Below are positions 1,896 through 23,669 of a stretch of DNA of 23,669 nt, in pieces (within the stretch, counting starts at the first letter, position 1; each line of letters begins with the position of its first letter). The notes below the pieces were generated by a model. It searched no databases. It worked only from the letters and a program-made list of their open reading frames with translations, and was not told the DNA's origin. The stretch is from a virus, in the IMG/VR virus record IMGVR_UViG_3300027833_001559, positions 1-23,669 of that record; one strand, written 5' to 3'. The translations under genes and the position numbers were made by a program.

Positions 1896-1913
1896 AATAT
1901 TTCCTCCTTAAGG

Positions 1914-1926: not shown

Positions 1927-1942
1927 AACAAGGAGAACTAAT

Positions 1943-2391: not shown

Positions 2392-2426
2392 AAGTATATT
2401 TAACATTAAGATTATAAAACGCAACG

Positions 2427-2433
2427 ATAAATA
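2427..2433 (+). promoter_or_regulatory. T4-type late promoter motif ATAAATA before the IscA-like gene
   Basis: GATAAATA ends 21 bases before the ATG at 2455, the same geometry as the motifs before the fibre genes. It may drive the Fe-S scaffold gene and the giant fibre gene 12 bases after it, which has no motif of its own. Confidence 0.6.
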
Positions 2434-2454
2434 CTATCAGTAGAAAGAAAAAAT

Positions 2455-2814: not shown

Positions 2815-2826
2815 CGGAGCACAATA

Positions 2827-11800: not shown

Positions 11801-11838
11801 ACAGAGGAACTGTTAATGCAGTAGTAGGTAAAGGTTAA
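2827..11838 (+). CDS. Giant mosaic tail-fibre-like virion protein (3003 aa)
   Basis: The ATG is preceded by CGGAG. The N-terminus (about residues 8-37) carries ND-G-TGD, then R-x2-F-x-K-x-N-x-NF-x-EL, a module also found on the protein at 14619 and probably a virion-attachment end. Further on are HPGDLAG with LQAATKYYVDN (321-347) and four copies of a Cys-Arg-Asp module (443-499, 871-933, 1016-1084, 1186-1238). Three AHGL/NGD-type beta modules lie near 187-258, 549-619 and 1996-2073. A beta-helix-like entry with SLKGDEFRRVIIRP starts near 765, and a W-x2-G-x2-Y-x2-GD-x-V segment like carbohydrate-binding modules sits at 1290-1318. A highly conserved core with GNDFTQINDL and IRSLNGSNGYGNFG spans 1562-1636. 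A Gly-rich beta domain covers 1744-1802, a GDVVGNVT tandem repeat lies near 2777, and the C-terminal domain starts at TYADLAEYYEGD (2878). Similar proteins are virion components of marine T4-like phages. I infer a role in host recognition or adsorption. There is no break in 9 kb. Confidence 0.88.
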   Translation: MAKQDVNIGVEGNDGTGDSIRESFRKTNENFQELYAVFGQGGQISFTTLGDTPSTVESGKILTTDASGTAIIYSTIGSNSDVDSLVDDSINVDVVSVPGKIILTTTFSAIVDDNVKPTLGGHLSAANFGIAGVAITDSAATALNSQPGRSTSYTIDDLVITKGYADRRYITSGLPVRVAAEPATNTQYTLAITSYIDGNLFISGHGYDSGANGTGFVFQAEDVDPTGVTSGTTYFIRYVNADQLSLFATQVLAQTESSVEAAANKLTVSGTIAADDSHTIADAGFDKDLSGNFLSDVAMPRESITRRQGDTMTGDLFLSDHPGDLAGDGTPNGPEDLQAATKYYVDNTAYSSPEVLNVSTIGDDTMQGVPNGKEGTSLTYAFRTINAAARRAAELIKTAPEEPGPYFQTLTHTNYTTEATTLAAGVENAVNVVTSANLRLNKQFIIAEVTGYLAFKYPNFSYNVATCERDLGLIIDSLRIDAERGNNANYLTRTAAERYYSSVSGRLAITSQLEQTTDSFSFLGSLITSALLQNALLQQKEIASIVVKTGDVPSLVTTTTAHGLVNSNQVVFDSIVGMTELEDVVVYVKVTSATQFELFTDATLSTSYDNSTFTPFVSGNIGLRYQSKFAQDKSQAVAWDGAAGGAEPNGAAGITNNVTLLNNIITNGIEAGVDVSFGNRYQLSLTNSTAGQLDQTNPDNTDAIPGKVLRGKRTGAIGRIITFTQDTNSTIFYMQLLSPVQFDTNEEIEVGNYVKAKQVLIKVETGIYEEDYPIKLAKNVSLKGDEFRRVIIRPKRRQSQSIYASTYFYRDAEFDGLTLQTTGTPFVNQVGTTQGFFGRHYLTDNTKPANVGTTFTNLGKYADAAAVMKSNKEFIQDEVIFYINSTFPALTYDETKCRRDSALILEAVSFDVAFGTNYNSVTAGLAYQRANAYVAIGGQGIATNAAISFLKTAAAALVTGNGGSANAVARSNAGFDEILDIIANGVVSTDTAADALVFPAPTGGSINKVNASAQLQANKDFLAAEVLEFLNQNHNAVYATMSQAKCSRDVKYIVDALSYDVLYSGNTGSITNAKAYFVGAASQLAAGQQTATIAAYDHLATIAGQVVTEATVTNLQSVLAQDTTGTAATATEATEVDGLVQIIEDVITEGDLDSIAATVNPSITWAANEFKLGSQGITAGAATTVNDVITYIDLTFKDFTYNETKCRRDTGYIVDGIVKDLLSGGREFALENQGQYWTGYVSSGFAGQETQTTAAIQHISTLAGQLLLGTAPTTNAGTNFDPDVTLGDVEPNWAAGVSYKQGDFVQKGAIYYRALKTHVSKASDEDTDVLSATYLQLTDINVWKSVSSSIATVGKLVDTVTFAFNSAYNPPKRNDAEGMDVFLMDDATIIRNVTVQGHGGFMCVLDPEGQILTKSPYIQTASSFAKSENKKAFRGGMYVDAFAGNIPIRVKQNSGNYTDANGSVPLNAFTLYVESQDVGGQDQGLKLRLPELPAPFYYRGQRYQVTAISNYDSALGRAVIYLDPSSNQTNGWNFTGSDSPGDAGHNQDDTIQDIFLQSAGNRSILGNDFTQINDLAYGLVTNNGAFSEMVSMFTYYCHAAYYASNGSEIRSLNGSNGYGNFGLVAEGADPNEIPDQVTTLRNMTQPVKAFTYGGYTNITDDTSVTLYDFKEAPLKNAYIYIDHGGATGGLNYKITNVQNISDLNNDGTPGDAGSVVVTGLEAVAYSSGTVGSDGTYTNVAQKSSTGGGTGAVFNINVSGGTLTISTIENVGSGYAPSDTITIGGATIGGTDITNDVVLSITTLYTNTAGTFSNNVYRLTIQEAGSNLDFFPGLQASLSLDDVVEYRHGESFLFDNVDTQDITERPSTAINFDESDTTTYRSTGFTGSDDQNLALQADEIKTVFDDDFAYVIPTIDFANKAVSAPTGGGTLGNAASDTFLAIEKLNVKDAVRIVQQSTDSVSQTIKNPGDAGYTGGMIFSYAGRTLNVINYGPMTFGAITNVTSASPVTITSANHNLSNGDRVEFDSIGGTTILNGTSYYVGAVTTNTFKLYTDEAVTQALNGADYPAYTSGGRWVTTDSVWYIETAFIAGTDVEGNSTAGIKLSPTSTRLIHCGLPSGSTAEITVAISLLRATGHDFTEIGTGGFNTSNYPNVLLGQPIGGSASKAGAYTAADDASKAQVWERRKGRVFFISSDNDGFFRVGKYFVVDQSTGSITFAGDVGISRAASLGFKEGVTIDEFSNDELFIDLSDTAVPTEKAVANYVSRRLGHNGSAQLTGTSRFAPGFLALDGSTPLEANLNANSKQIKNLLDPTDDNDATTKDFVAQAVSNYDELDDLRNVTIHPVLPASISKQILTPTGKRRLLTDPEVAGSFTVGGTITDGTAQGTVVALESRFDNVLNKNVRIITYTLTTVGEFSTTASPINNGVVGSAGSTTAVVLENPVDEFTNAIESTASDINITVNRLEASTEIDLQIEAQAIINSDVNDTAEIDQSKLNMNIAQTSTAAPVGTAAQKQAASGLASFDQDNFEITDGFVGIKAGGVRYSELPTMVTDSVIGRSADATGVASAVAFSTIIAEGLGLADGDFASVLAYGSPTRTAPGSVLIKTGTGAYNTSVISYENTNTSIAKRDSSGKLQATALIIGGDATYEVLAESGGALSFKTPDQGVILTSSGASKPQINTGGNIKVGEMSVAPTESIFHANSAYGSVGGAGTTEETSAISSRWLYTNFIESVNEKNNESTGIGLGTGTGFSEGGNNVITFVTGGAVRGKITLAGFTGDVVGNVTGDVVGNVTGNASTITNQANSATITATNANTASQIVLRDASGNFSAGTITANLTGTASALNGTATTTNITTGAAATAGSITGNWSLTTGSRMEATYADLAEYYEGDTEYAVGTVVVFGGDKEVTQSTEHNTTRIAGVVSDQSAYTMNSECPGIKALVALQGKVPVNVIGTVAKGDMLVASSIPGYAVVNNDPKVGSVIGKAISTKADGDRGTVNAVVGKG
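4153..6540 (+). repeat. Four diverged copies of a Cys-Arg-Asp protein module inside the giant fibre gene
   Basis: Copies lie at about 4153-4323, 5437-5625, 5872-6078 and 6382-6540. Each has a helix-like lead (for example EFIQDEVIFYI), an aromatic F-x-Y, then C-x-RD-x3-I-x-D/E-x3-x-D and a Gly/Asn-rich turn. The core reads TCERDLGLIID, KCRRDSALILE, KCSRDVKYIVD and KCRRDTGYIVD in turn. They are diverged at DNA level, so this is old duplication rather than a recent expansion. Confidence 0.75.
11155..11202 (+). repeat. Perfect 24-base tandem repeat coding GDVVGNVT
   Basis: Two identical 24-base units (11155-11178 and 11179-11202) encode GDVVGNVT twice, followed by a partial third (GNA). The exact nucleotide identity inside an otherwise diverged gene suggests recent slippage or recombination. 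This type of GN/VTG repeat is common in shafts of phage fibres. Confidence 0.85.
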
Positions 11839-11850
11839 ATGACAAAGCAA

Positions 11851-11857
11851 ATAAATA
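11851..11857 (+). promoter_or_regulatory. T4-type late promoter motif ATAAATA
   Basis: AAATAAATA lies in the gap after the giant fibre gene and ends 18 bases before the ATG at 11876, with GAGGA between as Shine-Dalgarno. It probably drives the fibre gene and the protease gene, which lie nine bases apart. Confidence 0.65.
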
Positions 11858-11875
11858 TACTAAGCGAGGACACAA

Positions 11876-13012
11876 ATGACAAATAGATATCCACTCATAG
11901 TTGATGCATCCGATGGTAACAAATTAAAAGAAATACCAAGCGGAGACAATCTACAACTTACAGGTAGTAGCATCACTGGTGTTATAGATGTTACAGCAAG
12001 CGGAACTGTTGCAAGTGCAGTAGTAAGTGCAGCAAGCATTAAGAAAGGCGGCACTGAAATATCTGCTCTTGCAGTATCAGGTGCTTGGACTGATGTAGTA
12101 GGTAGACCTACTCAATTAAGTGAGTTTACTAACAACTTAAACTTTTTAGTAGCTGGGAACAATATTAGTGTATTAACTAATAATTCCGGCTATCTAACTA
12201 CTGTTGCATTTAGTGAAATAACAGACAAGCCTACTACAATAGCAGGGTATGGTATTACTGATGTAGCTTCATCTAGCCAAGGTGCATTAGCAGCGACATC
12301 AATACAGCCAGGAGACAACATTAGTAGGTTGTTTAATAACGCAGGATATTTAACAGTATCAGATATACAAAACGGCTTAGTTACAATAGATGTTAATAAC
12401 ACAGGCGACTTAGTTGGCAGTGTGTTTGCTGATGATTCAACTGTGATGGTTGACAGCATACTAGCCGCAGTCAACTTAGACGGAACAATTAGAGGTCATG
12501 TTAACCCTAATGCAAACCAACACAACACATGGGACTTAGGTACAAGCCCAATTAGGTTTAAAGATGCATATTTTCAAGGGACTGTTACTGCAACAAATTT
12601 TGTTGGTGACGGAAGTGGCCTTACTGGAATAAGTGGCGGCGCAGCTAATATAGGAAACTTTACACTTGCAGCTAGTGTAATCGATACAGATGATTCAAGT
12701 GGAATTACTATCACTCCGTTAGTTACTATTAGTAGTGATTTAAATGTCGAGAACGATCTACGTGTAACAAATGTTGTTTATGCAGAGACTTTTGAATCTA
12801 CATCTACTGGTGTGCCAACAATTAATAGTGCAAGTTCAATTAATCTTAGTGCAACTGATAGAGTTACAATAAACAAGAGTCCGTTAAAGTTTGCAACCTT
12901 TACATCAGCAGAAAGAGATGCACTTGTAAGTGTAGCAGGTGATACATTATTCAATTCTACTACTACAAAGCTACAAGTTTATACTGGCTCTGCTTGGGCA
13001 GACCTACATTAA
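11876..13012 (+). CDS. Tail fibre protein with short collar-type repeats (378 aa)
   Basis: The start has GAGGA upstream and a late motif. The N-terminus (RYPLIVDASDGNKLKEIPSG) is a probable docking segment. Residues of about 70-140 contain fibre repeats of the W/F-x-D/E-I-x-x-x-P-T-x-L/I-x-x-F/YG type (TDVVGRPTQLSEF, SEITDKPTTIAGYGITDV), the signature of trimeric shaft repeats in T4 gp37-like and other long tail fibres. The middle has the TWDLGTSPIRFKDAYFQGTV and FVGDGSGLTGISGG segments seen next to fibre tips and chaperone-type ends. The C-terminus ends with AERDAL, then FNSTTTKLQVYTGSAWADL, a widespread terminal beta motif of phage fibres. I infer a trimeric fibre that contacts the host surface. 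The gene is followed after nine bases by the subtilase, so both are probably made together late in infection. Confidence 0.82.
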   Translation: MTNRYPLIVDASDGNKLKEIPSGDNLQLTGSSITGVIDVTASGTVASAVVSAASIKKGGTEISALAVSGAWTDVVGRPTQLSEFTNNLNFLVAGNNISVLTNNSGYLTTVAFSEITDKPTTIAGYGITDVASSSQGALAATSIQPGDNISRLFNNAGYLTVSDIQNGLVTIDVNNTGDLVGSVFADDSTVMVDSILAAVNLDGTIRGHVNPNANQHNTWDLGTSPIRFKDAYFQGTVTATNFVGDGSGLTGISGGAANIGNFTLAASVIDTDDSSGITITPLVTISSDLNVENDLRVTNVVYAETFESTSTGVPTINSASSINLSATDRVTINKSPLKFATFTSAERDALVSVAGDTLFNSTTTKLQVYTGSAWADLH

Positions 13013-13021
13013 GGAGCACCT

Positions 13022-14593
13022 ATGAGCGAAAAAGAATATATCGTTACCCTTAACAAAGGTGTCGACTACGATGCATTTAATCAAGAGATGATAGCGAACA
13101 CTGGTGCAGGAGATATTCCCGGACGTAGTGTAGATATAGCAGACGCAAGACTAGGGTCACAACGTAATACACATTACTCCCTTACAGACGATGAAGCAAG
13201 TGATTTAAAAAACGACAGTAGAGTATTAGATGTTGCAATTCCGCCAGATCAAGATGATAACTTAGAAATTGGCCTTACTACAACTTTTAGCGGAACTTTC
13301 TATAAAGGAACTTCAGAAGGTGGTGAATATATAGACTGGGGTAAAAGACGACATAGTATAACTACTGAAGATGCTATTTGGTCTTCTTCTTTAGTAGGAT
13401 CTTATGATTTTAATCTAGACGGCAGTGGAGTAGATGTTGTAATACAAGATAGCGGATTACAAGTAGACCATCCAGAATTTATAGACGAATACGGCGTTAG
13501 TAGAGTACAACAGATTGACTGGTATACAGAAAGTGGAATAGCTGGCTCACAAAACGCAAACCATTACAGAGATACAGACGGACACGGAACTCATTGTGCA
13601 GGAACAGCAGCAGGTAAATCGTTTGGATGGGCAAAGAACGCAAGAGTGTATAGTGTTAAACTAGCAGGACTAGAAGGTGCCGGCGACAGTGGTACTGGTA
13701 TTAGTATTAGTAATTGTTTTGATGTTATTAAATTATGGCATAGAAATAAACCAATTGATCCTGTAACAGGACAAAAGCGGCCAACTATTGTTAATATGAG
13801 TTGGGGATATAGTACCGCAGCAACTTCTTTAGACAGTGTATCATATAGAGGAGTAACTTACACCAGCGGAAATGATGCTAGTTTTAGTGCTACTCCTAAT
13901 GCACATATGAGAGACACTTACGGAATTTATCCATATAATACAACTAGCGGTTATAGAGCGCCAGTGAGAGTAGCATCAGTAGATACAGACGTAGAAGAAT
14001 TAATAGACGAAGGTGTATGTGTTTGTATTGCTGCAGGTAATAATAGTTTTAAAGTAGATGTTAGTGGTGGCGATGATTATAATAATTCATTTGATAGAGG
14101 ATCAGGTAATGTATTTTATCACCGAGGTAGTTCGCCCTATAGTGTAAATGCATTTATGGTTGGTAGTTTACAAGCTCAATCTAGTACAGCAGATAATAAA
14201 GTAGGATTTAGCACAACAGGACCAGGTGTAGATATTTACGCAGCAGGCAATAATATTGTTAGCTGTACAAGTAATACAAATAAATTTAGTGATGCCGCGT
14301 ACTACGGTTCTGGTAGTTTTAGGCAATGCAATATTAGTGGCACTAGTATGGCTAGTCCGCAAGTATGTGGATTAGGCGCATTATATTTACAGGCAAACCC
14401 AATGCTCACACAAGCACAGTTACAAGATATGATACATAAAGATTCGAGCGAAACATTAGAAGCAGGATCACTTACAGGGTACGGCGATACAAATGATGCT
14501 ATGGGCGGACCACGCAGAGTAATGGTATCAAGGTATACAACTGATGTACCTTTCTCAAATACATTATCAGGCACAGTAAGTATCACGAGTTAA
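13022..14593 (+). CDS. Subtilisin-like serine protease (peptidase S8) with I9-like propeptide
   Basis: The full catalytic set of the subtilase family is present in 523 residues. It comprises Asp143 in VVIQDSGLQVDHPEF, His188 in DGHGTHCAGTAAG, the oxyanion Asn340 in IAAGNN, and Ser442 in ISGTSMASPQVCG. Residues 1 to about 75 resemble an I9 inhibitor/propeptide: YIVTL at the start, HYSLTDDEASDL, then a SRVLDVAIPP strand. The enzyme may therefore be made as a zymogen that cuts itself. There is no signal peptide, so it acts in the host cytoplasm or rides in the virion. AAGGAG stands before the ATG. It is nine bases behind a fibre gene and without its own late motif, so co-transcribed with it. I infer a virion-associated protease that trims fibre proteins during assembly or digests host surface proteins at adsorption; it could also cut host proteins inside the cell. 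T4's own prohead protease gp21 belongs to another family. Confidence 0.93.
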   Translation: MSEKEYIVTLNKGVDYDAFNQEMIANTGAGDIPGRSVDIADARLGSQRNTHYSLTDDEASDLKNDSRVLDVAIPPDQDDNLEIGLTTTFSGTFYKGTSEGGEYIDWGKRRHSITTEDAIWSSSLVGSYDFNLDGSGVDVVIQDSGLQVDHPEFIDEYGVSRVQQIDWYTESGIAGSQNANHYRDTDGHGTHCAGTAAGKSFGWAKNARVYSVKLAGLEGAGDSGTGISISNCFDVIKLWHRNKPIDPVTGQKRPTIVNMSWGYSTAATSLDSVSYRGVTYTSGNDASFSATPNAHMRDTYGIYPYNTTSGYRAPVRVASVDTDVEELIDEGVCVCIAAGNNSFKVDVSGGDDYNNSFDRGSGNVFYHRGSSPYSVNAFMVGSLQAQSSTADNKVGFSTTGPGVDIYAAGNNIVSCTSNTNKFSDAAYYGSGSFRQCNISGTSMASPQVCGLGALYLQANPMLTQAQLQDMIHKDSSETLEAGSLTGYGDTNDAMGGPRRVMVSRYTTDVPFSNTLSGTVSITS

Positions 14594-14599
14594 TAAATA
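14593..14599 (+). promoter_or_regulatory. T4-type late promoter motif ATAAATA
   Basis: TAATAAATA overlaps the stop codon of the protease gene and ends 19 bases before the ATG at 14619. An ATGGAG Shine-Dalgarno element lies between. The position matches the other late motifs in this module. Confidence 0.65.
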
Positions 14600-14618
14600 G
14601 TAATATGGAGATCACAAA

Positions 14619-15320
14619 ATGGCAATAACTAGAATAAATGTAGGTACTATAGCAAATGATAGTACAGGAGACGACCTAAGACAAGCGTTTGTTAAAGTTA
14701 ATAATAACTTCGACGAACTAGATCTTAGAGTTGTACCGCAGAACGAAGCAGCAAACTTAGGAGCAGGCACCGGCGTGTTTTACTCTAAAGAAGGCGCAGT
14801 ACTAAATTTTAGAACTTTAATTGCAGGCGATAATATTGCACTTACTTCAGACGGCAATAGTATTACAATTACTAGTCCAAGTACACTTTCAATTGCATCA
14901 GACAGCACAGCATTAAATATTTCAGGTGCTAATAGACAGTTTGGTATCAAAGGTGGACAAAATATTACAACTGAAGTTAGTGCAACTGATATTAGAGTTG
15001 CTATTGATCCAACTGACTTAATTGCACAAGATACTAATCCTACGTTAGGTGCGGCGCTTAACGCTAATACATTTAATATTAATAATGTAGGAACACTAAA
15101 TGCAACAAATATAACTGCAACAACAATTACAGGTGCGCTAACAGGCACAGTAGACGGCATAAGTGTTACAGAAGTAAATAGACTTGCAAATGGTGCAGAC
15201 TACGGCGGCGCAGTAATAAACTCACAATCGGGTTTAGAATTATTACTTGCATTAACTGCAATAGACTATGGATCATTAACATCACCAGCATCAATTACTT
15301 CAGATTACGGTACACTGTAA
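14619..15320 (+). CDS. Tail fibre-like virion protein sharing the giant protein's N-terminal module (233 aa)
   Basis: Residues 5-35 carry NVG, ND-S-TGD, then R-x2-F-x-K-x-N-x-NF-x-EL, which matches the start of the 3003-residue protein. I read this as a common docking domain for the same virion site. The rest is beta-rich and low in charge: GAGTGVFYSKEG, FRTLIAGDNIAL, repeated NTFNINNVGTL-type segments, then ITGALTGTVDGIS. A short C-terminal end has LLLALTAIDYGSL. This is the composition of a fibre shaft with a small tip. GGAG and a late promoter precede it. The exact structural role is unknown, but a position in the tail or adsorption apparatus fits the neighbours on both sides. Confidence 0.8.
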   Translation: MAITRINVGTIANDSTGDDLRQAFVKVNNNFDELDLRVVPQNEAANLGAGTGVFYSKEGAVLNFRTLIAGDNIALTSDGNSITITSPSTLSIASDSTALNISGANRQFGIKGGQNITTEVSATDIRVAIDPTDLIAQDTNPTLGAALNANTFNINNVGTLNATNITATTITGALTGTVDGISVTEVNRLANGADYGGAVINSQSGLELLLALTAIDYGSLTSPASITSDYGTL

Positions 15321-15326
15321 TTTTCG

Positions 15327-15333
15327 ATAAATA
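15327..15333 (+). promoter_or_regulatory. T4-type late promoter motif ATAAATA
   Basis: GATAAATA lies in the 34-base gap after the previous stop and ends 21 bases before the ATG at 15355. The Shine-Dalgarno sequence between them is weak (AGGGAA). Confidence 0.65.
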
Positions 15334-15354
15334 TGCTATATAGGGAATAGATAT

Positions 15355-18135
15355 ATGGCAAACTTTTGGACAAATAATAACGGAGATAGTTTAGGTACTT
15401 TGCAAGAGCAAGTGACTATTAATCCGTTACAGCTACCTCTTTCGGAATCAAGTGCTACAGTTGCATTAATTAGTGGCAAACTTCCTAAAGGACTTAGGCT
15501 AACTAATAATACTATTGCAGGTACTCCGATAGAAGTTGCTAATGAAACAGTTAGTACATTTGTACTTCGAGCAACATACAATTCACAAATTAGCGATAGA
15601 ACTATAAAGATAACAGTACAAGGTGCTGATGATCCAGTATGGGAAACTGACGCAGGATTATTAAAAGCAGGTAATAACGATACTTACTATATATTAGATA
15701 GTTCTCCTGTTGATTTTCAATTAGTAGCTATAGATAGTGATACAGCAGCAGGACAACCATTAGAATTTTTTATTCCAAGTAATGGTGGTACACTTCCACC
15801 GGGCATAAAGTTAACAAGTGATGGTCGACTAGTTGGCATAGTTGATCCAATTTTAGCAATACAAAAATCTGTCGGTAGCGGAACATATGATGACGCTGGC
15901 TTTGATGCAGGAACTACATCAGCATACGACTTTAGTGTGCCAAGTTCAAACGGCTATGACAGTTTTTATTACGATACTACAATCTACGGACTAAACACTC
16001 CAACACGTTCTCCTAAAAAACTTAATCGTTTTTATGAGTTTCAAGTTAGTGTAAGCGATAGCGATTCAATTGCAACTAGAACGTTTAAACTATATGTTGT
16101 TGGCGATGATTTCTTTAGATCAGATACAACAGTTATGCAAGTTGGCACAGGAATTTTTAGTGCAGACAATACACACATCAGAGTACCAATTTGGGTAACT
16201 CCGAGAGACTTTGGATATAGGCGTGCAGACAATTATGTCACACTAATACTCGATGTTATTGATCCTAATACAGTATTAGGTGTAGTAAGTTATTACCTGA
16301 CATCATTAAATGACGATAATACACAAAGTATACTACCGCCCGGATTAACTCTTGATACTACTACAGGAGAAATTGCTGGTAGAGTCCCTTATCAGCCAGC
16401 AGTAACAAAAGAATATAAATTTACAATTAATGCAAAGCGCATTGGCTATGATATTGATAGTGTACAATTAATAGAATATTTGTACCAAAGTGCAAACATT
16501 GGCATCGCACAGATTAAAGTAAGTAAGTTTGACAAGTATTCAAATTTTGCTCTTAATAGGGAATTTACAGTAGCAGGTGAAACATATTCTGTTACTAGTA
16601 TTAACACAAGTAATACTGAATATGATGTATTAACCTTGAACAGGGCAATTGTTACTAACTTTACTAAAGGCATTAGTATTAACTTTGGTACTATTGCTAT
16701 TACTGAACTAGAAGAAGCTGTTAGTAAAAAGACATTTGTTATAAAACTATTAGGCGAAATAGATTCAACTATTGCATATACTACTCCGGCAAACTTAGGA
16801 TCGTTTAGTGCAAACTATATTAGTACACTTGCTGTTAGTGCAACAACAACTGTTCCAAATGCTATGTTGCTTTACAGTTTAACAGCAGGCACATTGCCGC
16901 CAGGTATAACATTATCGTTGTCCGGAGAGTTAATCGGTAAAGTAAGAAGTTTTGGTACAGAAGAAAATCTTGGACTTACTGTATTTGATAGTCAGCAGAT
17001 GCAATTAGACGGAAATACTACTACATTAGATCGCACATATAAGTTTACAATTAAAGCACAAGATCAATATGGATTTAGTGCAATTGAAAAAGAATTTAGT
17101 ATTAAGTTATCAGATCCTGATAATAAACAATACAGTAATGTGTTTATGCGTCCGTTACTACCAAAGACTCAACGTAATTCATATATTAACTTTGTAAATG
17201 ATGCAGAAATATTCCTTCCAGAATATCTATATAGACCAGACGATATTAACTTTGGCGTACAAACTAAAATTAATATTCTTGCTTATGCAGGCATTGAGGC
17301 AAAGTCATTAGATTATTTTACAGCCGCAGTAGCTAAGAATCATAAAAGACGTAATTTTACAGTTGGCAATGTTAAAACGGCAGTTGCACTAGCACCCGGA
17401 ACAAAGGATGTAGTATACGAAGTTGTATACTTAGAAGTTATCGATCCAAAGCAATCAACTCAAAAGAATAAGAAGGTTGCTACACAAATTCAAATAAAAA
17501 ACACTGATACAATAACTGTTGATAGTTCAATGTATAGCACAGTTGATGATTTATATAATAGTGAGTTTGCACAACTTACTATTCAAACTAGACAATCTGG
17601 CTCAATAGAAGTTAAATGGATTGATATGTTAACAATTACTAGCAGAGACGAAGTACTTAATCTTCCTGCTACAAATGAATTATCAATATTTAATCGAGCT
17701 GGCGAACCTTTATCTATACCGTTTGTAGCAGGTATTGTTGAAAGCAATAAAGATACGCCTAATACAACAAATACTATAACTGCTGACAGTAATGCAATAA
17801 AAGTCGACGGCTCTAATGATACAACACGTTATATATCTAATCTAACACATATGAGAGATAACTTAAAAGATATAGGCGAAACTGAAAAGAACTTTTTACC
17901 GTTATGGATGAGATCTGCACAAGAAGATACTGTAACAGAATTAGGGTTTGTTAATGCTATTCCATTATGCTATTGTAAGCCAGGTACTGCAAAAATAATT
18001 AAAAACATAATTGATTACAATAACATTGACTTTAAACAATATGAATTAGATGTTGACAGATATGTTATAGATAACTCAGAAGGTGTTTCACAAGAACAAT
18101 ATGTTGTATTCGCAAATTACGAATTTAACACTTAA
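15355..18135 (+). CDS. Virion structural protein with Ig-like (He_PIG type) repeats (926 aa)
   Basis: At least four repeats of a putative Ig-like beta-sandwich are visible by their signature L-P-x-G-L/I-x-L then G-x-I/L-x-G: about residues 41-58, 145-166, 326-349 and 513-530 (for example ILPPGLTLDTTTGEIAGRV). Such repeats are common in phage tail and baseplate-peripheral proteins, where they may bind host surface sugars. After residue 590 the protein changes character, with FMRPLLPKTQRNSYINF, PEYLYRPDDINFGVQ and NHKRRNF. Its C-terminus has FLPLWMRSAQ, then AIPLCYCKPG and DRYVIDNSEG. It looks like a conserved folded tail domain of the kind seen in large structural proteins of marine T4-like phages. 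No enzyme motif was seen. I expect a tail or baseplate-attached virion component, expressed late from its own motif. Confidence 0.8.
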   Translation: MANFWTNNNGDSLGTLQEQVTINPLQLPLSESSATVALISGKLPKGLRLTNNTIAGTPIEVANETVSTFVLRATYNSQISDRTIKITVQGADDPVWETDAGLLKAGNNDTYYILDSSPVDFQLVAIDSDTAAGQPLEFFIPSNGGTLPPGIKLTSDGRLVGIVDPILAIQKSVGSGTYDDAGFDAGTTSAYDFSVPSSNGYDSFYYDTTIYGLNTPTRSPKKLNRFYEFQVSVSDSDSIATRTFKLYVVGDDFFRSDTTVMQVGTGIFSADNTHIRVPIWVTPRDFGYRRADNYVTLILDVIDPNTVLGVVSYYLTSLNDDNTQSILPPGLTLDTTTGEIAGRVPYQPAVTKEYKFTINAKRIGYDIDSVQLIEYLYQSANIGIAQIKVSKFDKYSNFALNREFTVAGETYSVTSINTSNTEYDVLTLNRAIVTNFTKGISINFGTIAITELEEAVSKKTFVIKLLGEIDSTIAYTTPANLGSFSANYISTLAVSATTTVPNAMLLYSLTAGTLPPGITLSLSGELIGKVRSFGTEENLGLTVFDSQQMQLDGNTTTLDRTYKFTIKAQDQYGFSAIEKEFSIKLSDPDNKQYSNVFMRPLLPKTQRNSYINFVNDAEIFLPEYLYRPDDINFGVQTKINILAYAGIEAKSLDYFTAAVAKNHKRRNFTVGNVKTAVALAPGTKDVVYEVVYLEVIDPKQSTQKNKKVATQIQIKNTDTITVDSSMYSTVDDLYNSEFAQLTIQTRQSGSIEVKWIDMLTITSRDEVLNLPATNELSIFNRAGEPLSIPFVAGIVESNKDTPNTTNTITADSNAIKVDGSNDTTRYISNLTHMRDNLKDIGETEKNFLPLWMRSAQEDTVTELGFVNAIPLCYCKPGTAKIIKNIIDYNNIDFKQYELDVDRYVIDNSEGVSQEQYVVFANYEFNT

Positions 18136-18139
18136 CAGA

Positions 18140-18147
18140 TATAAATA
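18140..18147 (+). promoter_or_regulatory. T4-type late promoter motif TATAAATA
   Basis: GATATAAATA gives a full eight-base T4 late consensus and ends 21 bases before the ATG at 18169. AGGAG lies between. Confidence 0.7.
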
Positions 18148-18168
18148 TGAGTACAGGAGAAAAATAAA

Positions 18169-18732
18169 ATGGCAAGTACAATTAGTACAGTAGGATTCGA
18201 CGCTGCTTTTCCAGTAGCAGGAGTAGACAACGATAGTCAAGGCTTTCGTACAAACTTCAACGTAACTAAAGTAGGATTAGAACAAGCAGCAACAGAAATT
18301 ACTAGTTTACAATCGACAACAGCAAAATTAAATGCAGCTAACGATTTTAATGGTAGTATAATTAGTGAAGCTGAATTACAAAAGAATACCGAAACTGTAT
18401 ATTCAAATGCAGCACGTTCAGGTGCTTGGAGTTTAGATTGGGAGCAAGGACATTACCAAACACTACAGGCAAATGGAACGTTAACAGCAACAATTACAAA
18501 TCTTCCACCAAGTGGGGTAATGGGCAGAATGCGATTACAACTAACTGGTGACGGAACAAGTCGTGTCGTAACACTAGCAAGTGCAACTGGATCTATCCTA
18601 ACTGACGGCCATGCTGCTTGGACAGGTGATACATTAAGTGTTAATTCTGCAACTACTCCTGTTATTATTGACTTATGGTCAATAAATGGCGGCACAACAA
18701 TATTTGCTAATTACGTAGGTATATTTGCTTAA
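18169..18732 (+). CDS. Small virion structural protein (187 aa)
   Basis: AGGAG and a perfect late motif precede the ATG. The N-terminal third (FPVAGVDNDSQGFRTNF, then a helix with EQAATEITSLQSTTAKLN) recalls the N-x-NF helix module of the fibre proteins but is distinct. The central NDFNGSIISEAELQKN is followed by a beta-rich C-terminal domain (about residues 85-187) with LTATITNLPPSG and VVTLASATG. That domain ends in a beta strand, ANYVGIF. Proteins of this pattern are virion components in marine T4-like phages. It has no enzymatic motif. The stop overlaps the next ATG as TAATG, so the following 78-residue protein is probably translated by the same ribosomes. Confidence 0.78.
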   Translation: MASTISTVGFDAAFPVAGVDNDSQGFRTNFNVTKVGLEQAATEITSLQSTTAKLNAANDFNGSIISEAELQKNTETVYSNAARSGAWSLDWEQGHYQTLQANGTLTATITNLPPSGVMGRMRLQLTGDGTSRVVTLASATGSILTDGHAAWTGDTLSVNSATTPVIIDLWSINGGTTIFANYVGIFA

Positions 18733-18968
18733 TGTTTAATCCATTAGTTGATAGCTTTGAACAACTAAGTGACGCTGAAGTAGAAAATAAAATGCTCGAT
18801 CTTCAGCGTAAATATTTTATGTCTCCTAATCCACAAGTCCAAGAACAAATTTCTGTAATACTAGAAATGTTTAAACAAGAAACAAATTCAAGGCGTGCCA
18901 AGCAATACGTACAACAACAAGAACAAAATGGCGAAAAAGGACTTGACAGTTTAATAAATGTAAGTTAA
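18732..18968 (+). CDS. Small helical phage protein, function unknown (78 aa)
   Basis: It starts at the TAATG overlap with the structural gene and has only a poor Shine-Dalgarno sequence, so coupling is likely. The product is helical and charged: LVDSFEQLSDAEVENKMLDL, RKYFMSPNPQVQEQIS, then a long Gln/Glu-rich helix and a C-terminal LDSLINV. I do not recognise a catalytic domain. The short length, helical make-up and the hydrophobic/acidic LDSLI end are loosely like T4 gp33, the late-transcription co-activator whose C-terminus (LDFLL) binds the sliding clamp. That is only a guess, but a late-transcription factor would suit a genome with so many late motifs. A candidate promoter for the next gene lies in its last codons. 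Confidence 0.7.
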   Translation: MFNPLVDSFEQLSDAEVENKMLDLQRKYFMSPNPQVQEQISVILEMFKQETNSRRAKQYVQQQEQNGEKGLDSLINVS

Positions 18969-18971
18969 ACT
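18943..18971 (+). promoter_or_regulatory. Candidate promoter before the DnaE-like fragment
   Basis: TTGACA (18943-18948) has a weak -10 TAAACT (18966-18971) 17 bases on, which would put the transcript start at or next to the ATG at 18978. A one-mismatch late motif, ATAAATG (18954-18960), lies in the same stretch, ending 17 bases before that ATG. Either could serve; both are weak. The downstream gene has no Shine-Dalgarno sequence. Confidence 0.3.
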
Positions 18972-18977
18972 GTATGT

Positions 18978-19508
18978 ATGCTTATAAAAACAGACTCTCT
19001 CGGTATCCCGAGATTTACAAATAAAGACTTAGTTAATATGATCTATAGTGGTCATGTTGACAAATGTCATGTTGTATTATGCGATCCTAGTGATGATATT
19101 GAAAAGTTTAACGCAGCAATGCGCGAACAATATCTACCCGAGCTTAAACAATATATTCCATTAGATGTAGATCAAAAGACTTTTGACGGTGCATTACAAT
19201 CAGAATGGTTCATGCCTGATGAATATAAGAATATAAATGTATACGAGTATGTATTAGGCAAAGCAGAAACACCCTGTCCACAGCATGTACAAGATCGTAT
19301 ATGGGAAGAACTTAGAGCATATCAAGTACGTGGTATGTTTCCGTTATTGCAGTATATGATTTACCTTGTAGACTTTATGCGTGAGAATGATATTGTATGG
19401 GGTGTAGGTAGAGGTAGCTCTGTAGCATCATATGTGTTATACTTAATAGGTGTACACAAAATTAACTCAATCCAGTTTGGCCTGGATTGGCGGGAGTTCT
19501 TGAGATAA
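18978..19508 (+). CDS. DnaE-like (DNA polymerase III alpha) fragment lacking catalytic residues (176 aa)
   Basis: The C-terminal half matches the start of the palm domain of bacterial replicative polymerase DnaE/PolC. The order is a helix VQDRIWEELRAYQVRGM, a hydrophobic helix MIYLVDFMRENDI, the G-x-GRGS motif (G142 to S147) followed by SVASYVLYLIGV, and then FGLDWREFL. In DnaE the last segment (LLFERFLNP) is followed within about ten residues by the two catalytic aspartates (PDIDIDF). Here the protein stops at FLR, just before them. Residues 1-100 do not resemble the PHP domain in any way I can see. The frame is clean, so this is not an obvious frameshift; no continuation is visible downstream. 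It cannot be a polymerase alone. It could be a decoy, a clamp- or template-binding adaptor, or a decaying remnant. There is no Shine-Dalgarno sequence. Confidence 0.72.
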   Translation: MLIKTDSLGIPRFTNKDLVNMIYSGHVDKCHVVLCDPSDDIEKFNAAMREQYLPELKQYIPLDVDQKTFDGALQSEWFMPDEYKNINVYEYVLGKAETPCPQHVQDRIWEELRAYQVRGMFPLLQYMIYLVDFMRENDIVWGVGRGSSVASYVLYLIGVHKINSIQFGLDWREFLR

Positions 19509-19539
19509 GTAATACTATAACTAAAAGGAGGCTATTAAC

Positions 19540-19866
19540 ATGGCAATGAAACAACCAGGACGTATTGTCCACAGAAGTGCTAACGGCAAAGCCGTTGATA
19601 TGGATATGTTACGTCAACGTAATGAGCTAACTCCGGCAGTAGGAAATGCGAGAGTTAATGCAAGAGGCGACGAATTAGGCCCAGGTGGTAAGATTGTTCG
19701 CAAGAAAGAAGATCTTCTTAAAGATTATTATGCAAATGCAAAAGGTATGGCAGAAGAACAGCCTGTAGCAAAAGGCGTATCAACAGAAGAAGCGCAACCA
19801 TCCGAAGCTGAACTAGCTGAATGGGAAGAAGATGACGACGGCAACTTTGTACAAAAAGGCAAATAA
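19540..19866 (+). CDS. Conserved acidic phage hypothetical protein (108 aa)
   Basis: A strong AAAAGGAGG sits before the ATG. The N-terminal half is basic and Gly/Asn-rich (KQPGRIVHRSANGKAVDMDM, NELTPAVGNARVNARGDELG, GPGGKIVRKKEDL). The C-terminal half is acidic (SEAELAEWEEDDDG). The charge split and low complexity suggest a partly disordered, multivalent binding protein. I associate this N-terminal pattern with small conserved proteins of marine T4-like phages, but no function is known to me. It is two bases upstream of the co-chaperonin gene, so the two are probably co-expressed; a role in folding or assembly is speculative. Confidence 0.75.
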   Translation: MAMKQPGRIVHRSANGKAVDMDMLRQRNELTPAVGNARVNARGDELGPGGKIVRKKEDLLKDYYANAKGMAEEQPVAKGVSTEEAQPSEAELAEWEEDDDGNFVQKGK

Positions 19867-19868
19867 AA

Positions 19869-20291
19869 ATGGCGACGAACATAAAGAAAATAAAAGGCTC
19901 ACCAAAGGCTATAGGTGATCGAACACTTGTAACAGATATGTTTTTTGGAGAACAAAAAACAAAAGGTGGTCTTATCATTAAAGATGATGATGGCACCACA
20001 CGAGGAATTTATCCTCGTTGGGCTAAAGTTTATTCTAAAGGACCACGGAACAACGAACCATTTGAAGTTGGACACTGGATTCTTGTAGAACACGGTCGAT
20101 GGTCTCGTGGAATGACTATAGAAACTCCAGAAGGTGAAATTGAGCTTCGAATGGTAGAAACTGAAAGTATACTCGGCTACTCTCTAGAGAAACCAAATGA
20201 TATTCAAATTGGTGCTGAATATTCAGATGGCGAACACGCTACTGTAGATCCAAGCTCATTTGTAAACTCATCAGGAGCATTGGCACAATGA
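19869..20291 (+). CDS. GroES/gp31-like co-chaperonin (140 aa)
   Basis: The first 105 residues follow the Cpn10 pattern. GDRTLV opens the beta-barrel, then EQKTKGGLII forms the mobile-loop region that docks on GroEL. A WAKVYSKGPRN strand-turn follows, then FEVGHWILVEHG (the GroES V-G-D-x-V equivalent), and a closing MVETESILGYS strand. T4 gp31 replaces host GroES so that GroEL can fold the major capsid protein; I infer the same role here. The C-terminal 35 residues (DIQIGAEYSDGE to the end) extend beyond a normal 95-residue GroES. There are only two bases between the previous stop and this ATG, with a weak AAGG upstream. The last codons overlap the mazG start as ATGA. Confidence 0.75.
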   Translation: MATNIKKIKGSPKAIGDRTLVTDMFFGEQKTKGGLIIKDDDGTTRGIYPRWAKVYSKGPRNNEPFEVGHWILVEHGRWSRGMTIETPEGEIELRMVETESILGYSLEKPNDIQIGAEYSDGEHATVDPSSFVNSSGALAQ

Positions 20292-20644
20292 CAAACACAT
20301 TTAAAGACATTGATAAATTTGCAACAGCGTGTGATCAGCCACCGAGTGAAGCAAACTATAAAATGTATCTTGATCTAATACGTGAAGAAACAGATGAGCT
20401 AGAAGAAGCTATTCAAGACAACGATAAAGTAGAACAGCTAGACGCACTAGTAGATATCCTAGTTGTTACTATGGGTGCAATCCGTGCCGCAGGTTGGGAC
20501 GGAGAAGCGGCCTGGAAAGAAGTAATGGACACAAACTTTGCAAAGATTGATCCAAACACAGGCAAAGTAATCAAACGTGATGATGGTAAAGTACTAAAGC
20601 CAGAAGGCTGGCTGGCGCCACAACTAGCACAATTTATTAAATAA
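20288..20644 (+). CDS. mazG: MazG-type nucleotide pyrophosphohydrolase (118 aa)
   Basis: This is an all-alpha NTP-PPase of the MazG family, which hydrolyses (d)NTPs to monophosphate and pyrophosphate. The metal-binding residues are present: REETDELEEAI (E33, E34, E37) and QLDALVDILV (D52, D56), followed by a GWDGEAAWKEVMDTNFAKI helix pair. The family's short C-terminal tail with KVLKPEGW is also present. It is a single MazG domain, as in marine phages, rather than the tandem form of E. coli. Phage MazG was proposed to lower host ppGpp; later biochemical work on a cyanophage MazG favoured dGTP/dCTP, fitting a role in recycling host nucleotides. It overlaps the co-chaperonin gene as ATGA and is followed by a 67-base regulatory gap. 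Confidence 0.9.
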   Translation: MTNTFKDIDKFATACDQPPSEANYKMYLDLIREETDELEEAIQDNDKVEQLDALVDILVVTMGAIRAAGWDGEAAWKEVMDTNFAKIDPNTGKVIKRDDGKVLKPEGWLAPQLAQFIK

Positions 20645-20656
20645 TTTAAAAACTAC

Positions 20657-20685
20657 TTGACTCCTTAGTTACTATATGCTATAAT
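20657..20685 (+). promoter_or_regulatory. Sigma70-type promoter of the exonuclease-clamp loader operon
   Basis: TTGACT (20657-20662), 17 bases, then TATAAT (20680-20685): 11 of 12 to consensus, in the largest intergenic gap of the window. Transcription should begin near 20691-20693, giving a leader of about 20 bases with the AAGGAG ribosome-binding site. The start falls between the two arms of the hairpin at 20660-20705. Confidence 0.8.
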
Positions 20686-20705
20686 GTATATAATAATTAA
20701 GGAGT
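20660..20705 (+). promoter_or_regulatory. Hairpin that would hide the exonuclease ribosome-binding site in read-through RNA
   Basis: ACTCCTTAGTTA (20660-20671) pairs with TAATTAAGGAGT (20694-20705) over 12 continuous base pairs, one of them G-U, with a 22-base loop. The right arm contains the whole Shine-Dalgarno sequence TAAGGAG (20698-20704) of the gene that starts at 20712. RNA coming through from mazG contains both arms and should be poorly translated. RNA begun at the local promoter starts after the left arm and leaves the site free. Confidence 0.7.
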
Positions 20706-20711
20706 ATTCTT

Positions 20712-21248
20712 TTGGCAACACACGGCACAATCGATCTAGAGACTATCGACACTAGTCCAAGCGCAACTGTTCTATCATTAGGAGCAGTTAAATTTAATCC
20801 ATTAAACGACAGCGAGCCACACAGCGAATTATACCTTAAAATTAATATTGATGAACAAGACCAACTAGGTCGTACAGCTAGTGACAGCACTATTGAGTGG
20901 TGGAGCAAGCAAGATCCAAAGATCATGGAAGAAGCATTTGATCAGACTGGTGCTGTTAGCGTAGATGAGGCTTTACGTCAAATTAGCAAATGGGTCGTTG
21001 GTATTGATACATTATGGGGACAAGGATACGGTTTTGACTATACCATACTGGAAGACATGTTCCGCCGCGCTGCAAAGCCTATTCCGTGGAACTTCTGGAT
21101 TATAAGAGATTCTAGAACACTGTTTGGCTGTTGCCAGGCAGATCCTCGCAAAGCATTTCAAACAGATTTACACAACGCATTAGCAGATGCATATTTTCAA
21201 TCAAAAGCAATACAAGTTGCATATAAAGAGTTAGGACTATTAAGATGA
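20712..21248 (+). CDS. DexA-like 3'-5' exonuclease (DEDD family), TTG start
   Basis: A 178-residue nuclease of the DnaQ-like/RNase T superfamily, DexA or Rv2179c-like branch. The acidic metal ligands are in order: D8 and E10 in TIDLETI, D109 in GYGFDYTIL, and H154 plus D159 in LHNALADA, a DEDDh set. The branch-specific STIEWWSKQ (59-67), WNFWIIRDSRTLF (126-138) and the GAVKF strand (24-28) are also present. T4 DexA degrades single-stranded DNA 3' to 5'. The start is TTG at 20712, chosen because TAAGGAG lies seven bases upstream and no nearer ATG fits. It is the first gene after the sigma70-type promoter and the hairpin that covers its ribosome-binding site. Its stop overlaps the next ATG as ATGA. 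Confidence 0.88.
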   Translation: MATHGTIDLETIDTSPSATVLSLGAVKFNPLNDSEPHSELYLKINIDEQDQLGRTASDSTIEWWSKQDPKIMEEAFDQTGAVSVDEALRQISKWVVGIDTLWGQGYGFDYTILEDMFRRAAKPIPWNFWIIRDSRTLFGCCQADPRKAFQTDLHNALADAYFQSKAIQVAYKELGLLR

Positions 21249-21442
21249 ATCCTCCACCAAGAGATCAAAATACACATCAAAAAGAAATAGACGAATTTTT
21301 AGCTAAAGGTGGCAAAATTCAAAAGTTTGAATACGGACAACGAACTGAAGATTTAGAAGTTGGGTATAGTTTCTATGGTAGACGTAAGAAGCCAGCAGCT
21401 AAACCTACTGCTGATAAAACGACCACAAAGAAGAAAAAATGA
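21245..21442 (+). CDS. Small basic protein with EFLAKGGKIQ motif (65 aa)
   Basis: It begins in an ATGA overlap with the exonuclease and ends in another with the next small gene, so it is in the middle of a coupled chain. The N-terminal half contains HQKEIDEFLAKGGKIQKFEY, a helix and turn recurring in small phage and bacterial proteins, sometimes next to DNA-binding segments. The C-terminal 20 residues are nearly all Lys, Ala, Thr and Pro, a likely nucleic-acid-binding tail similar in style to the H1-like protein at 1629. I do not recognise a function. Confidence 0.75.
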   Translation: MNPPPRDQNTHQKEIDEFLAKGGKIQKFEYGQRTEDLEVGYSFYGRRKKPAAKPTADKTTTKKKK

Positions 21443-21603
21443 TTAGATGGTATGACTGGCTAGCAGCTATATCATACGCACATCTTATTATGTATTTCTT
21501 CTTTACAATTCCTATCGTTGGTGCTATAATAGCATATATGATATACGAATACTTATGGGGACATGTGTATTGTCAATTTAGATTACAACAGGAAAACAGA
21601 TGA
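21439..21603 (+). CDS. Small membrane peptide in the replication operon (54 aa)
   Basis: It starts in an ATGA overlap at 21439 and ends in another at 21600-21603 with the clamp loader start, so it fills the gap exactly. A short aromatic N-terminus (IRWYDWLA) leads to a hydrophobic stretch of about residues 8-36 (SYAHLIMYFFFTIPIVGAII), then EYLWGHVYCQF and a polar tail. One or two membrane helices are likely. It is too short for most gene finders' length cutoffs. Function unknown. Its position would couple translation of the clamp loader to that of the exonuclease genes even if the peptide did little. Confidence 0.75.
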   Translation: MIRWYDWLAAISYAHLIMYFFFTIPIVGAIIAYMIYEYLWGHVYCQFRLQQENR

Positions 21604-22514
21604 AAGAATTATGGGTAGAAAAGTATCGTCCGAAAACAGTAGATGGTTACGTATTTCGAGATGAAGCGCAGAGAAAACAAGTAAACACTTGGATTGCAGA
21701 TAAAAGCATTCCTCATTTGTTGTTTAGTGGCGCAGCTGGCATTGGTAAAACTACACTTGCAAAACTATTGTTTAACGAACTTGAAATTAACGACTTAGAT
21801 ATTTTAGAAATTAACGCAAGTCGTACAAATAGTGTTGAAGATGTACGTAATAAAATTGTTAACTTTGTACAGATGATTCCGTTTGGTGACTTTAAAGTTG
21901 TGTTACTTGATGAGGCAGATTACTTGTCGCCTAACGCACAGGCAGCACTACGTGGTGTGATGGAAGAGTATCATACTACTGCACGTTTTGTTATGACATG
22001 TAATTACGAAAATAGAATTATTCCTGCTATTCATAGTCGTTGCCAAGGCTTCCATATTGCTAAAGTTGATCAAACAGAATTTACAGCACGTATTGCAACT
22101 ATTCTTATTACAGAAGGTATAACTCCAGACTTAGATATTCTTGACACATATGTCAAAGCGACATATCCAGACTTGCGTAAGTGTATAAATATGTGTCAGA
22201 TGAATGTGCAAGACGGCAGCTTGCTTCGTCCTAATGAAGGCGACACTGGGAACAGTGATTGGAAGATAGATATGGTCGAATTGTTTAAAGCAGGCAAAGT
22301 TAATGAAGCACGTAAACTATTATGCGGAACAGTCCGTCCTGAAGAGATGGAAGAAATTTATCGTTGGCTGTATGACAATATTGAATTGTTCGGTGACGAA
22401 GCACAACAAGATACCGCAGTGTTAACTATTAAACAAGGTCTAGTAGATCATGCATTGGTTGCAGACCCGGAGATTAACTTAGCGGCAACGTTAATTAGAC
22501 TGGCAAGAATCTAA
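21600..22514 (+). CDS. 44: Sliding-clamp loader large subunit (T4 gp44-like AAA+ ATPase)
   Basis: A 304-residue AAA+ ATPase of the replication factor C/gp44 group, which opens the ring clamp gp45 and loads it on primer-template DNA. Visible motifs are WVEKYRP (5-11, the RFC box), Walker A GAAGIGKTT with K50, Walker B VVLLDEAD with D104 and E105, sensor 1 TCNYENRI (N135), and the arginine-finger SRC (146-148). The C-terminal region from 165 on is the helical lid plus collar domain, of normal length. In T4 four gp44 subunits act with one gp62; gp62 usually follows directly. Here the next gene is a P-loop kinase-like protein and no gp62 is recognisable in the window. A TATAAATA at 22184-22191 lies inside the coding frame and is probably coincidental. 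Confidence 0.94.
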   Translation: MKELWVEKYRPKTVDGYVFRDEAQRKQVNTWIADKSIPHLLFSGAAGIGKTTLAKLLFNELEINDLDILEINASRTNSVEDVRNKIVNFVQMIPFGDFKVVLLDEADYLSPNAQAALRGVMEEYHTTARFVMTCNYENRIIPAIHSRCQGFHIAKVDQTEFTARIATILITEGITPDLDILDTYVKATYPDLRKCINMCQMNVQDGSLLRPNEGDTGNSDWKIDMVELFKAGKVNEARKLLCGTVRPEEMEEIYRWLYDNIELFGDEAQQDTAVLTIKQGLVDHALVADPEINLAATLIRLARI

Positions 22515-22870
22515 TGATTATTTTAATATGCGGGCCCGAAGGCAGCGGTAAAACTACGATAGCAAAGCCGCTTGCAGAACTATTAGGAGCCCAGTATGTT
22601 ACTAAAGATAGTTATACAAAAGAACTTAAAGGATATATCGACGGCATTGTTGCAACAGGCAAGACAGTAGTAATAGACAAGCGTTGTAATACAAACAAAG
22701 CAGTTGAATACTTAAATCCTGATTATATTGTATGGATGGATATGCGTACAGTAAAAACAGAAAAGCCTTACAGAGTTGACTATCATGTAGAAAAATGGTT
22801 CAGCGATGCTCATCTACAGCTTTCACAAGTTGTTAACCGATATATGGGAAAGAATTACTCATTTCAATGA
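22514..22870 (+). CDS. P-loop kinase-like protein (118 aa)
   Basis: The start overlaps the clamp loader stop by one base (TAATG). Residues 2-15, [14 protein letters not shown], form a strand and Walker A loop with K13. VVIDKR (57-62) could be the second strand of the fold and DYIVWMDMR (about 69-77) a later core strand. The layout is like small nucleotide or adenylylsulfate-type kinases (CysC/AAA_33 group), but it is short (118 versus 170-200) and the usual lid Arg pair is not obvious. The substrate cannot be told from sequence. Possible roles are nucleotide or polynucleotide end phosphorylation. It stands where T4 has gene 62 but shares none of its features that I can see. Confidence 0.78.
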
Positions 22871-22880
22871 AAGGAAAATT

Positions 22881-23240
22881 ATGTCATACTTAGTAACTGA
22901 TAATTGCATTAAATGTAAACATATGGATTGTGTAGCAGTGTGTCCAGTAGACTGTTTTTATGAAGGCGAAAACATGCTAGTTATCAATCCAGATGAATGT
23001 ATCGACTGTGGCGTATGTGAGCCCGAATGTCCTGCAGATGCTATTTTAGCAGAAAATGCATTTTCAACTCCTCAAGAACAAGTACGTTGGGAAGAAATTA
23101 ATCGAGAGTATAGTTTAATTTGGCCTGTTATTACTCAAGTAAGAGAAAACGATGTTCCTGCTGATGCAAAGGATTGGGACGGCGTACCAAACAAATTTGA
23201 AGAGCATTTCAGTGCAGCACCAGGAAAGGGTGATGAATGA
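22881..23240 (+). CDS. fdxA: 7Fe ferredoxin, FdxA type ([3Fe-4S][4Fe-4S])
   Basis: A 119-residue ferredoxin that clearly follows Azotobacter FdI/FdxA. C9, C17 and C50 fit the [3Fe-4S] cluster, and C21, C40, C43 and C46 the [4Fe-4S] cluster, with C12 and C25 also kept. The N-terminal core reads [26 protein letters not shown] and [13 protein letters not shown]. The C-terminal extension with [23 protein letters not shown] matches the alphaproteobacterial style. I choose ATG 22881 because AAAGGAAA is just upstream and the family starts there; the in-frame extension to 22806 only reads through the kinase gene. It carries low-potential electrons; the partner is not in the window. The next gene, DHFR, overlaps it as ATGA. 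Most marine cyanophage ferredoxins are plant-type [2Fe-2S], so this one is unusual. Confidence 0.95.
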
Positions 23241-23669
23241 TAAAAGCAATACTAGCATGTGACGACTATGGCGGCGTAAGTAAAAAGGGTACATTGCCTT
23301 GGCCTAATAATCCAACAGACCTTAAATGGTTTAAAAGTAATACAGCAGGACATATTGTTGTGATGGGATCTACTACTTGGGATGATCCACATATGCCACG
23401 TCCGTTGCCCAAGCGCACAAATGTACTTGTAACTACACGCAAGGACGACTATCCAGGTGCAGACATGTATATTACTGGTGATTTAAACAGTGAAATAAAA
23501 CATATCGAGTATATAAACGAAGGTGTTATTACTTGGGTTATAGGTGGTCCTAATATTATCGAACAAACACTAGGTGTTATTGACGAATTTTATATTAGTC
23601 GTATTCCAGGGGCTTATGCATGTGACACATTCTTACCATTGCGTAAGATTGAAAGTTTATTTGAACTCA
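23237..23669 (+). CDS. folA: Dihydrofolate reductase (partial, cut by window edge)
   Basis: The ATG at 23237 overlaps the ferredoxin stop as ATGA. The frame is open for 144 codons to the end of the window. It reduces dihydrofolate to tetrahydrofolate with NADPH, closing the thymidylate cycle; T4 has the same gene as frd. Motifs in order: IKAILACDD strand, [16 protein letters not shown] with W22 and the acidic active-site D28, [11 protein letters not shown] (the family's V-M-G-R-x-T-W with Ser for Arg), [12 protein letters not shown], then [12 protein letters not shown] (nucleotide-binding Gly-Gly), and [20 protein letters not shown]. About 20-30 residues are probably missing at the C-terminus. 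A thymidylate synthase gene would be expected close downstream. Confidence 0.93.

Follow-up and report, generated by a model that had tools for sequence, protein, structure and literature searches.

A sigma70-type promoter inside a hairpin that contains the Shine-Dalgarno sequence: a candidate boundary element of phage genomes

Directly upstream of an exonuclease gene in the window (the whole 23,669-nt stretch of viral DNA analyzed here), a σ70-type promoter, an RNA hairpin and a Shine-Dalgarno (SD) sequence occupy the same bases. We propose that they probably constitute a compact boundary element: RNA reading through from upstream would be silenced by termination and/or by occlusion of the SD, and the element's own σ70-type promoter would make RNA exempt from this silencing. 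The element would be placed at the end of the structural, or late, block. RNA from upstream would carry both arms of the repeat and fold into a hairpin containing the whole SD; compensatory and G-U changes that keep the hairpin in relatives indicate that it works as + strand RNA. In most relatives, a U-rich tract right behind the hairpin completes what looks like intrinsic-terminator anatomy, with the 3′ arm formed by the SD and the U-tract by the spacer between the SD and the start codon. The promoter is threaded through the same bases, its -35 element on the 5′ arm and its -10 element in the loop. Read-through RNA would end at the start codon and/or stay untranslated, and the local promoter would yield translatable RNA. 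Late RNA would enter the element from upstream, and the host-σ promoter in the loop would serve early. The features on which this proposal is based are as follows:

18140..18147, + strand: TATAAATA, the final T4-type late promoter motif ahead of the element, located 28 nt before the tail-block gene at 18169
20657..20662, + strand: -35 hexamer TTGACT, the last three bases of which (ACT) open the 5′ arm
20660..20671, + strand: 5′ arm of the outer stem, ACTCCTTAGTTA, the anti-SD, from the fold and covariation
20673..20692, + strand: inner 7-bp stem closing a hexaloop, from the fold; its pairs are retained in most relatives
20680..20685, + strand: -10 hexamer TATAAT, exactly the hairpin loop; nearly invariant in relatives though unpaired
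20692, + strand: predicted transcription start, 7 nt past the -10 element, from promoter spacing
20694..20705, + strand: 3′ arm of the outer stem, TAATTAAGGAGT, containing the whole AAGGAG (20698-20703), from the fold
20706..20713, + strand: T-rich tract ATTCTTTT, running from the SD to the start and entering the TTG; a possible terminator U-tract
20712..21248, + strand: exonuclease gene with a TTG start, encoding a 3′-5′ exonuclease (Rv2179c-like, PHROG exonuclease; PF16473, phrog_255)
21502..21530, + strand: clamp loader promoter TTTACA-17-TATAAT, for the gene at 21600, with no SD hairpin

The promoter TTGACT-17-TATAAT named in the initial annotation was found at positions 20657-20685 of the + strand, with 11 of 12 matches and a TG extension. 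It is joint best among the 33 promoter-like sites in the region 15000-23669, a number of sites equal to that expected by chance. The 12-bp stem with the SD in its 3′ arm, described in the same annotation, was also recovered: 12 outer pairs (20660-20671 with 20694-20705) are followed by one mismatch and by seven inner pairs (20673-20679 with 20686-20692) that enclose the loop 20680-20685, and the AAGGAG lies wholly inside the 3′ arm. The inner 7-bp stem and the T-rich tract had been overlooked in that description. By itself, the hairpin 20660-20705 has a predicted energy of -21 kcal/mol, and the minimum free energy of the segment 20641-20730 is -23.7 kcal/mol versus -9.9 kcal/mol for shuffled sequences (z -5.3; 0 of 200 shuffles).

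The proposal that transcription starts between the arms agrees with the placement of the promoter, since with the -10 element forming the loop the predicted start, 20692, coincides with the end of the inner stem, and local RNA would lack the 5′ arm. RNA begun at this position could not form the terminator or the SD block. In agreement with the expected silence of read-through RNA, the calculated probability that the SD is unpaired is 0.0005 in the long RNA with both arms; in RNA from about 20692 it rises to 0.26. Local RNA had been expected to stay open, and this holds in part: the SD is far less hidden there, but a weak AAGGAG/CUUUU hairpin (-2.3 kcal/mol) can form, although the segment 20692-20730 as a whole is no more structured than its shuffles (z 0.02). 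In the folding model, the SD of local RNA is thus partly open, limited by SD/CUUUU pairing, and the contrast between the long and the short RNA is still large.

Relatives of the locus were gathered from IMG/VR by exonuclease homology, regardless of the upstream DNA or of arm sequence, which yielded 80 loci. The promoter-hairpin lies directly upstream of the exonuclease in about half of them; in most of the remaining loci, it is found about 165 nt further up, ahead of a 53-aa ORF located in front of the exonuclease. The hairpin is 38-54 nt long, depending on arm spacing. In some relatives, it is weak or absent beside the promoter (L067; G002), and in L070 and L079 it is shifted and still covers the SD. 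In L001, L002 and L029, a tRNA gene between a σ70-like promoter and the exonuclease (upstream of 4001) stands where the SD hairpin would be; L029 has a pairing of AGTTTGTTT with AAACGAACT that stops immediately before the tRNA. The minus strand of L031 carries, at 2986, an inverted repeat TTGACTCCTTGTTAAG...CAACAAGGAGTCAA, the ends of which resemble a -35 element on each strand; it may work in both directions.

Several properties of the family resemble those of intrinsic terminators. The spacer between the SD and the start codon has a T fraction of 0.76 in the elements versus 0.26 in 155 other genes with a GGAG in the same loci; spacers such as TTTTCTT and TTTTATT occur in relatives, and TTTTCTTTTG is present in many. 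Among 84 strong elements, the U-tract value (nT) exceeds 3 in 93%, and the terminator score (d'Aubenton-Carafa) is passed (>0) in 71%. The use of TTG as a start codon tracks the element (22 of 30 genes with it versus 0 of 29 without), as though the tract entered the start codon. One can therefore suppose that the element is mainly an intrinsic terminator closing the upstream (late) operon, and that the SD overlap is a space-saving coincidence with little translation block; the early promoters of RB49, which include a hairpin at the -10 element, with TTTTCTTTT and then a separate SD behind it, and so resemble a promoter in a terminator, fit such a view. We consider it unlikely as the main explanation. 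The stem is A/U-rich, and the window's copy, with an imperfect U-tract (ATTCTTTT), falls below the terminator threshold (d -16.3). Moreover, SD pairing is retained where the U-tract is lost (L039, L047, L049, L075 and PA5oct), and the shifted hairpins of L070 and L079 cover the SD nevertheless. Since SD pairing outlasts the loss of the U-tract, termination alone does not explain the element.

Conversely, the element may act mainly by translational occlusion, with read-through RNA continuing past a blocked SD and the U-rich spacer used otherwise (S1 binding, a weak start). The full pairing of the SD in the long RNA and its persistence in elements without the U-tract speak for this, and T4 gene e works in this way (PMC3014915), with like numbers in our calculation. 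Occlusion leaves unexplained the enrichment of U right behind the stem ahead of unrelated first genes, and as the main account it is rather improbable too. The preferred reading, a boundary element silencing by termination and/or occlusion, accommodates both sets of observations. The hiding of the SD, which had been the whole mechanism in the initial annotation, is retained in it; the terminator-like U-tract had been missed, and termination may contribute as much as the translation block. Judged from sequence, a terminator built from the SD and the spacer is likely for the family; for the window's copy it is uncertain.

Conservation and covariation of the stem in relatives, the absence of which had been named beforehand as speaking against the hairpin, were both found. 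Stem positions 7-12, which lie beyond the -35 and SD bases, are paired in 83% of cases across 43 distinct elements, versus 47% with shuffled 3′ arms (maximum 60% in 2000) and 25-43% with slid arms. A MAFFT alignment of 33 elements, from which ten were omitted because their element was shifted, weak or a near-duplicate, has 89.8% paired cells versus 75.6% in shuffled versions and a covariation score of 0.414 versus 0.175 (slid versions, at most 0.084). Cells with changes on both sides number 101 versus 39.7 in shuffled versions; the rows are related to each other, so these counts are not independent events. RNAalifold also recovered this outer stem and counted six compensatory pairs in it, and one pair of alignment columns contains C-G, G-C, A-U, U-A, G-U and U-G. 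As can be seen from the same 33 relatives, the first six columns (the -35 element) are invariant and the -10 element is nearly so; the conserved bases that are unpaired are the TTG of the -35 element and the -10 element in the loop. Conserved unpaired bases together with a covarying stem are what two overlaid constraints, one on a promoter and one on an RNA stem, are expected to leave in the sequence.

A near-perfect inverted repeat over a promoter could also be a DNA palindrome, i.e., a repressor operator overlapping the promoter. This is strongly disfavoured, and we regard it as very improbable: the arm sequence varies freely with complementarity kept, and the spacing between the arms varies as well. 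Non-Watson-Crick pairs in relatives are G-U or U-G in 41 cases and A-C or C-A in 5, and an operator palindrome is rejected by this strand asymmetry. The excess of G-U over A-C points to selection on + strand RNA, since a DNA dyad would not favour the wobble of one strand; as only RNA entering from upstream holds both arms, selection would act on that RNA. Chance complementarity of TTGACTCC and GGAGT through overlap of the -35 and SD consensus sequences, to which the location of 6 of the 12 outer pairs in constrained -35/SD bases lends some appearance, has next to no probability, being refuted by covariation in the six pairs outside these bases, by the lack of such pairing at other promoters of the same genomes and by 75 of 129 loose pattern matches in which pairing is confined to the forced bases.

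Pattern scans of viral contigs revealed the element in front of at least five kinds of first genes, among them the exonuclease, the 53-aa ORF, mazG-like genes, MHPL, a DsbA-like ORF beside a DNA polymerase (in L317, both names were read by eye from the sequence) and others. The element thus keeps its place at the boundary, and the gene behind it varies. In front of mazG and MHPL, it lies directly behind the last tail-type gene; in G007, it follows an endolysin-like gene (judged from sequence, with no database match); and in the window's own lineage, it is located a few replication-type genes beyond the tail-type genes. In the 123-kb relative G001, the SD is fully hidden in one of 14 promoter-led genes, the gene of the element, which rules out a promoter class of the whole phage. 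There is one TTGACTCC-type element each in G001, G007 and G013. A search of 84,980 bacterial and archaeal genomes with a strict pattern retrieved three matches; with a pattern of this strictness, the element looks virus-specific.

Among isolated relatives, the element was not seen before mazG: in five cyanophages, mazG follows close behind the upstream genes, and the mazG leader of Atu_ph07 lacks the element. The Rfam search of the window gave no match above the gathering score and a single chance-level match (E 5.5). Phage PA5oct (L361), the clamp loader of which is 56% identical to that of the window, carries a single element built on the same logic, with arms, TTGACTAACTCC...AACGGAGTTAAC, that are unrelated; it precedes a DsbA-like gene. 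In this cultivated phage, at 18211 of the + strand, a promoter lies inside a 9-bp hairpin, AACTCCGTT/AACGGAGTT, in which the SD of the DsbA-like gene is hidden.

PeSL (promoter-early stem-loop) cassettes reportedly occur in RB49, phi1 and other T4-like phages, as described by Arbiol in 2010 and Comeau in 2014. The element is like these cassettes in that a σ70-like early promoter is joined to a terminator-like stem-loop between phage genes. The early promoters of RB49 have a stem-loop in the spacer between the -35 and -10 elements, or around the -10 element with a U-tract, and a separate SD, whereas in the present element the SD forms the 3′ arm; furthermore, RB49 has many PeSL cassettes per genome, such copies reportedly mediating recombination, and G001, G007 and G013 have one element each. 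In RB49 (L366), on the minus strand upstream of modB (about 9420-9482), there is a terminator-like hairpin GCCTCC...GGAGGC-TTTTTTATT-ATG, the 3′ arm of which is the SD, with the promoter upstream of the hairpin instead of inside it. IS10 and IS50 also have an internal σ70 promoter, and RNA from outside folds into an inverted-repeat hairpin that hides the transposase SD; these are transposons, and the element described here is located at phage operon boundaries. Like an intrinsic terminator, the element has, in most relatives, a U-tract behind its hairpin; it differs in having a promoter in the stem and loop, an overlap with the SD and an A/U-rich stem, the window's copy scoring low. PeSL work on T4-like phages is cited in PMC5931544.

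The hairpins of T4 genes e, soc, 49 and I-TevI have a late promoter inside an SD-hiding hairpin, on its 5′ side, such that transcripts begun at the inner promoter are translated and those coming from upstream are silent (PMC3014915, PMC2988022). The T4-like logic proposed in the initial annotation is borne out for gene e, which has the same topology and, as a control in the same calculation, gave SD unpaired probabilities of 0.00 for the long and 0.85 for the short RNA. With T4 soc as a second positive control, the SD was not hidden in the fold; the method thus misses some published cases. As in gene e, the hairpin hides the SD in read-through RNA. Unlike in gene e, the inner promoter is of the σ70 type and not the late TATAAATA, which would reverse the timing; a U-tract stands behind the stem, the gene is an early-type exonuclease, and several different first genes are found. 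By its sequence, the element joins SD occlusion of the T4 gene e type with a promoter/terminator cassette of the PeSL type, and it departs from each of these two known designs in a defining feature.

The block upstream of the element carries putative late promoters. Seven copies of the motif ATAAATA are present on the + strand of the window, and the minus strand has none; six of the seven, the last at 18141, are located 24-28 nt upstream of structural-block genes (1358 to 18169), and the gene that starts at 20712 has no copy in front of it. The motif is likewise enriched near gene starts in G001, G002 and G013. This arrangement matches T4-type late-promoter anatomy as far as can be judged from sequence. 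A search with PF04545 for a late σ factor gave nothing above the cut-off. Since the inner promoter is of the host-σ type and T4-type late promoters are found upstream, the exonuclease gene is expected to be early and shielded from late read-through. The reversal of timing relative to T4, suggested in the initial annotation, is therefore plausible on these sequence grounds: the late-promoter motifs upstream fit it, but a promoter-like site at 18943 means that early RNA, too, may enter from upstream.

This site, TTGACA-17-TAAACT (18943-18978), has its predicted start at the ATG of a 176-aa DNA-polymerase-III-like ORF and is seen in many relatives, which may point to a leaderless early mRNA; because of its overlap with the end of the upstream gene, codon conservation confounds its own. 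The ORF itself (18978-19508) encodes an isolated short segment similar to the DNA polymerase III alpha subunit (phrog_11127, PF07733).

The product of the gene behind the element matches Pfam PF16473 (7e-35) and PHROG phrog_255. Control by the element of the whole chain of genes down to the clamp loader, as had been claimed, is unlikely because a separate promoter with no SD hairpin, at 21502-21530, serves the clamp loader, and promoters occur at the same place in relatives. The probable targets are the exonuclease gene and a 65-aa ORF that overlaps it at 21245. Further downstream, at 22806-23240, there is a phage ferredoxin-like gene with 4Fe-4S domains and DUF3470.

More tentatively, the sequences are compatible with a wider reading, in which an element of about 50 bp would combine three roles, those of a terminator of the late operon, an early promoter for the host σ and a translation switch that depends on the start site, and would move as a unit between first genes, with timing the reverse of that of T4 gene e. 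If the proposal is true, late RNA would be kept from re-expressing early genes on the same strand with no protein regulator and within about 50 bp. Uncultivated phages of marine and fresh waters with a clamp loader closest to that of PA5oct frequently carry the element. It is easily detected by pattern and could mark operon boundaries, and it could serve as a ready-made insulated promoter part. It would also link two devices of the T4 group, SD-hiding hairpins and promoter/terminator cassettes.
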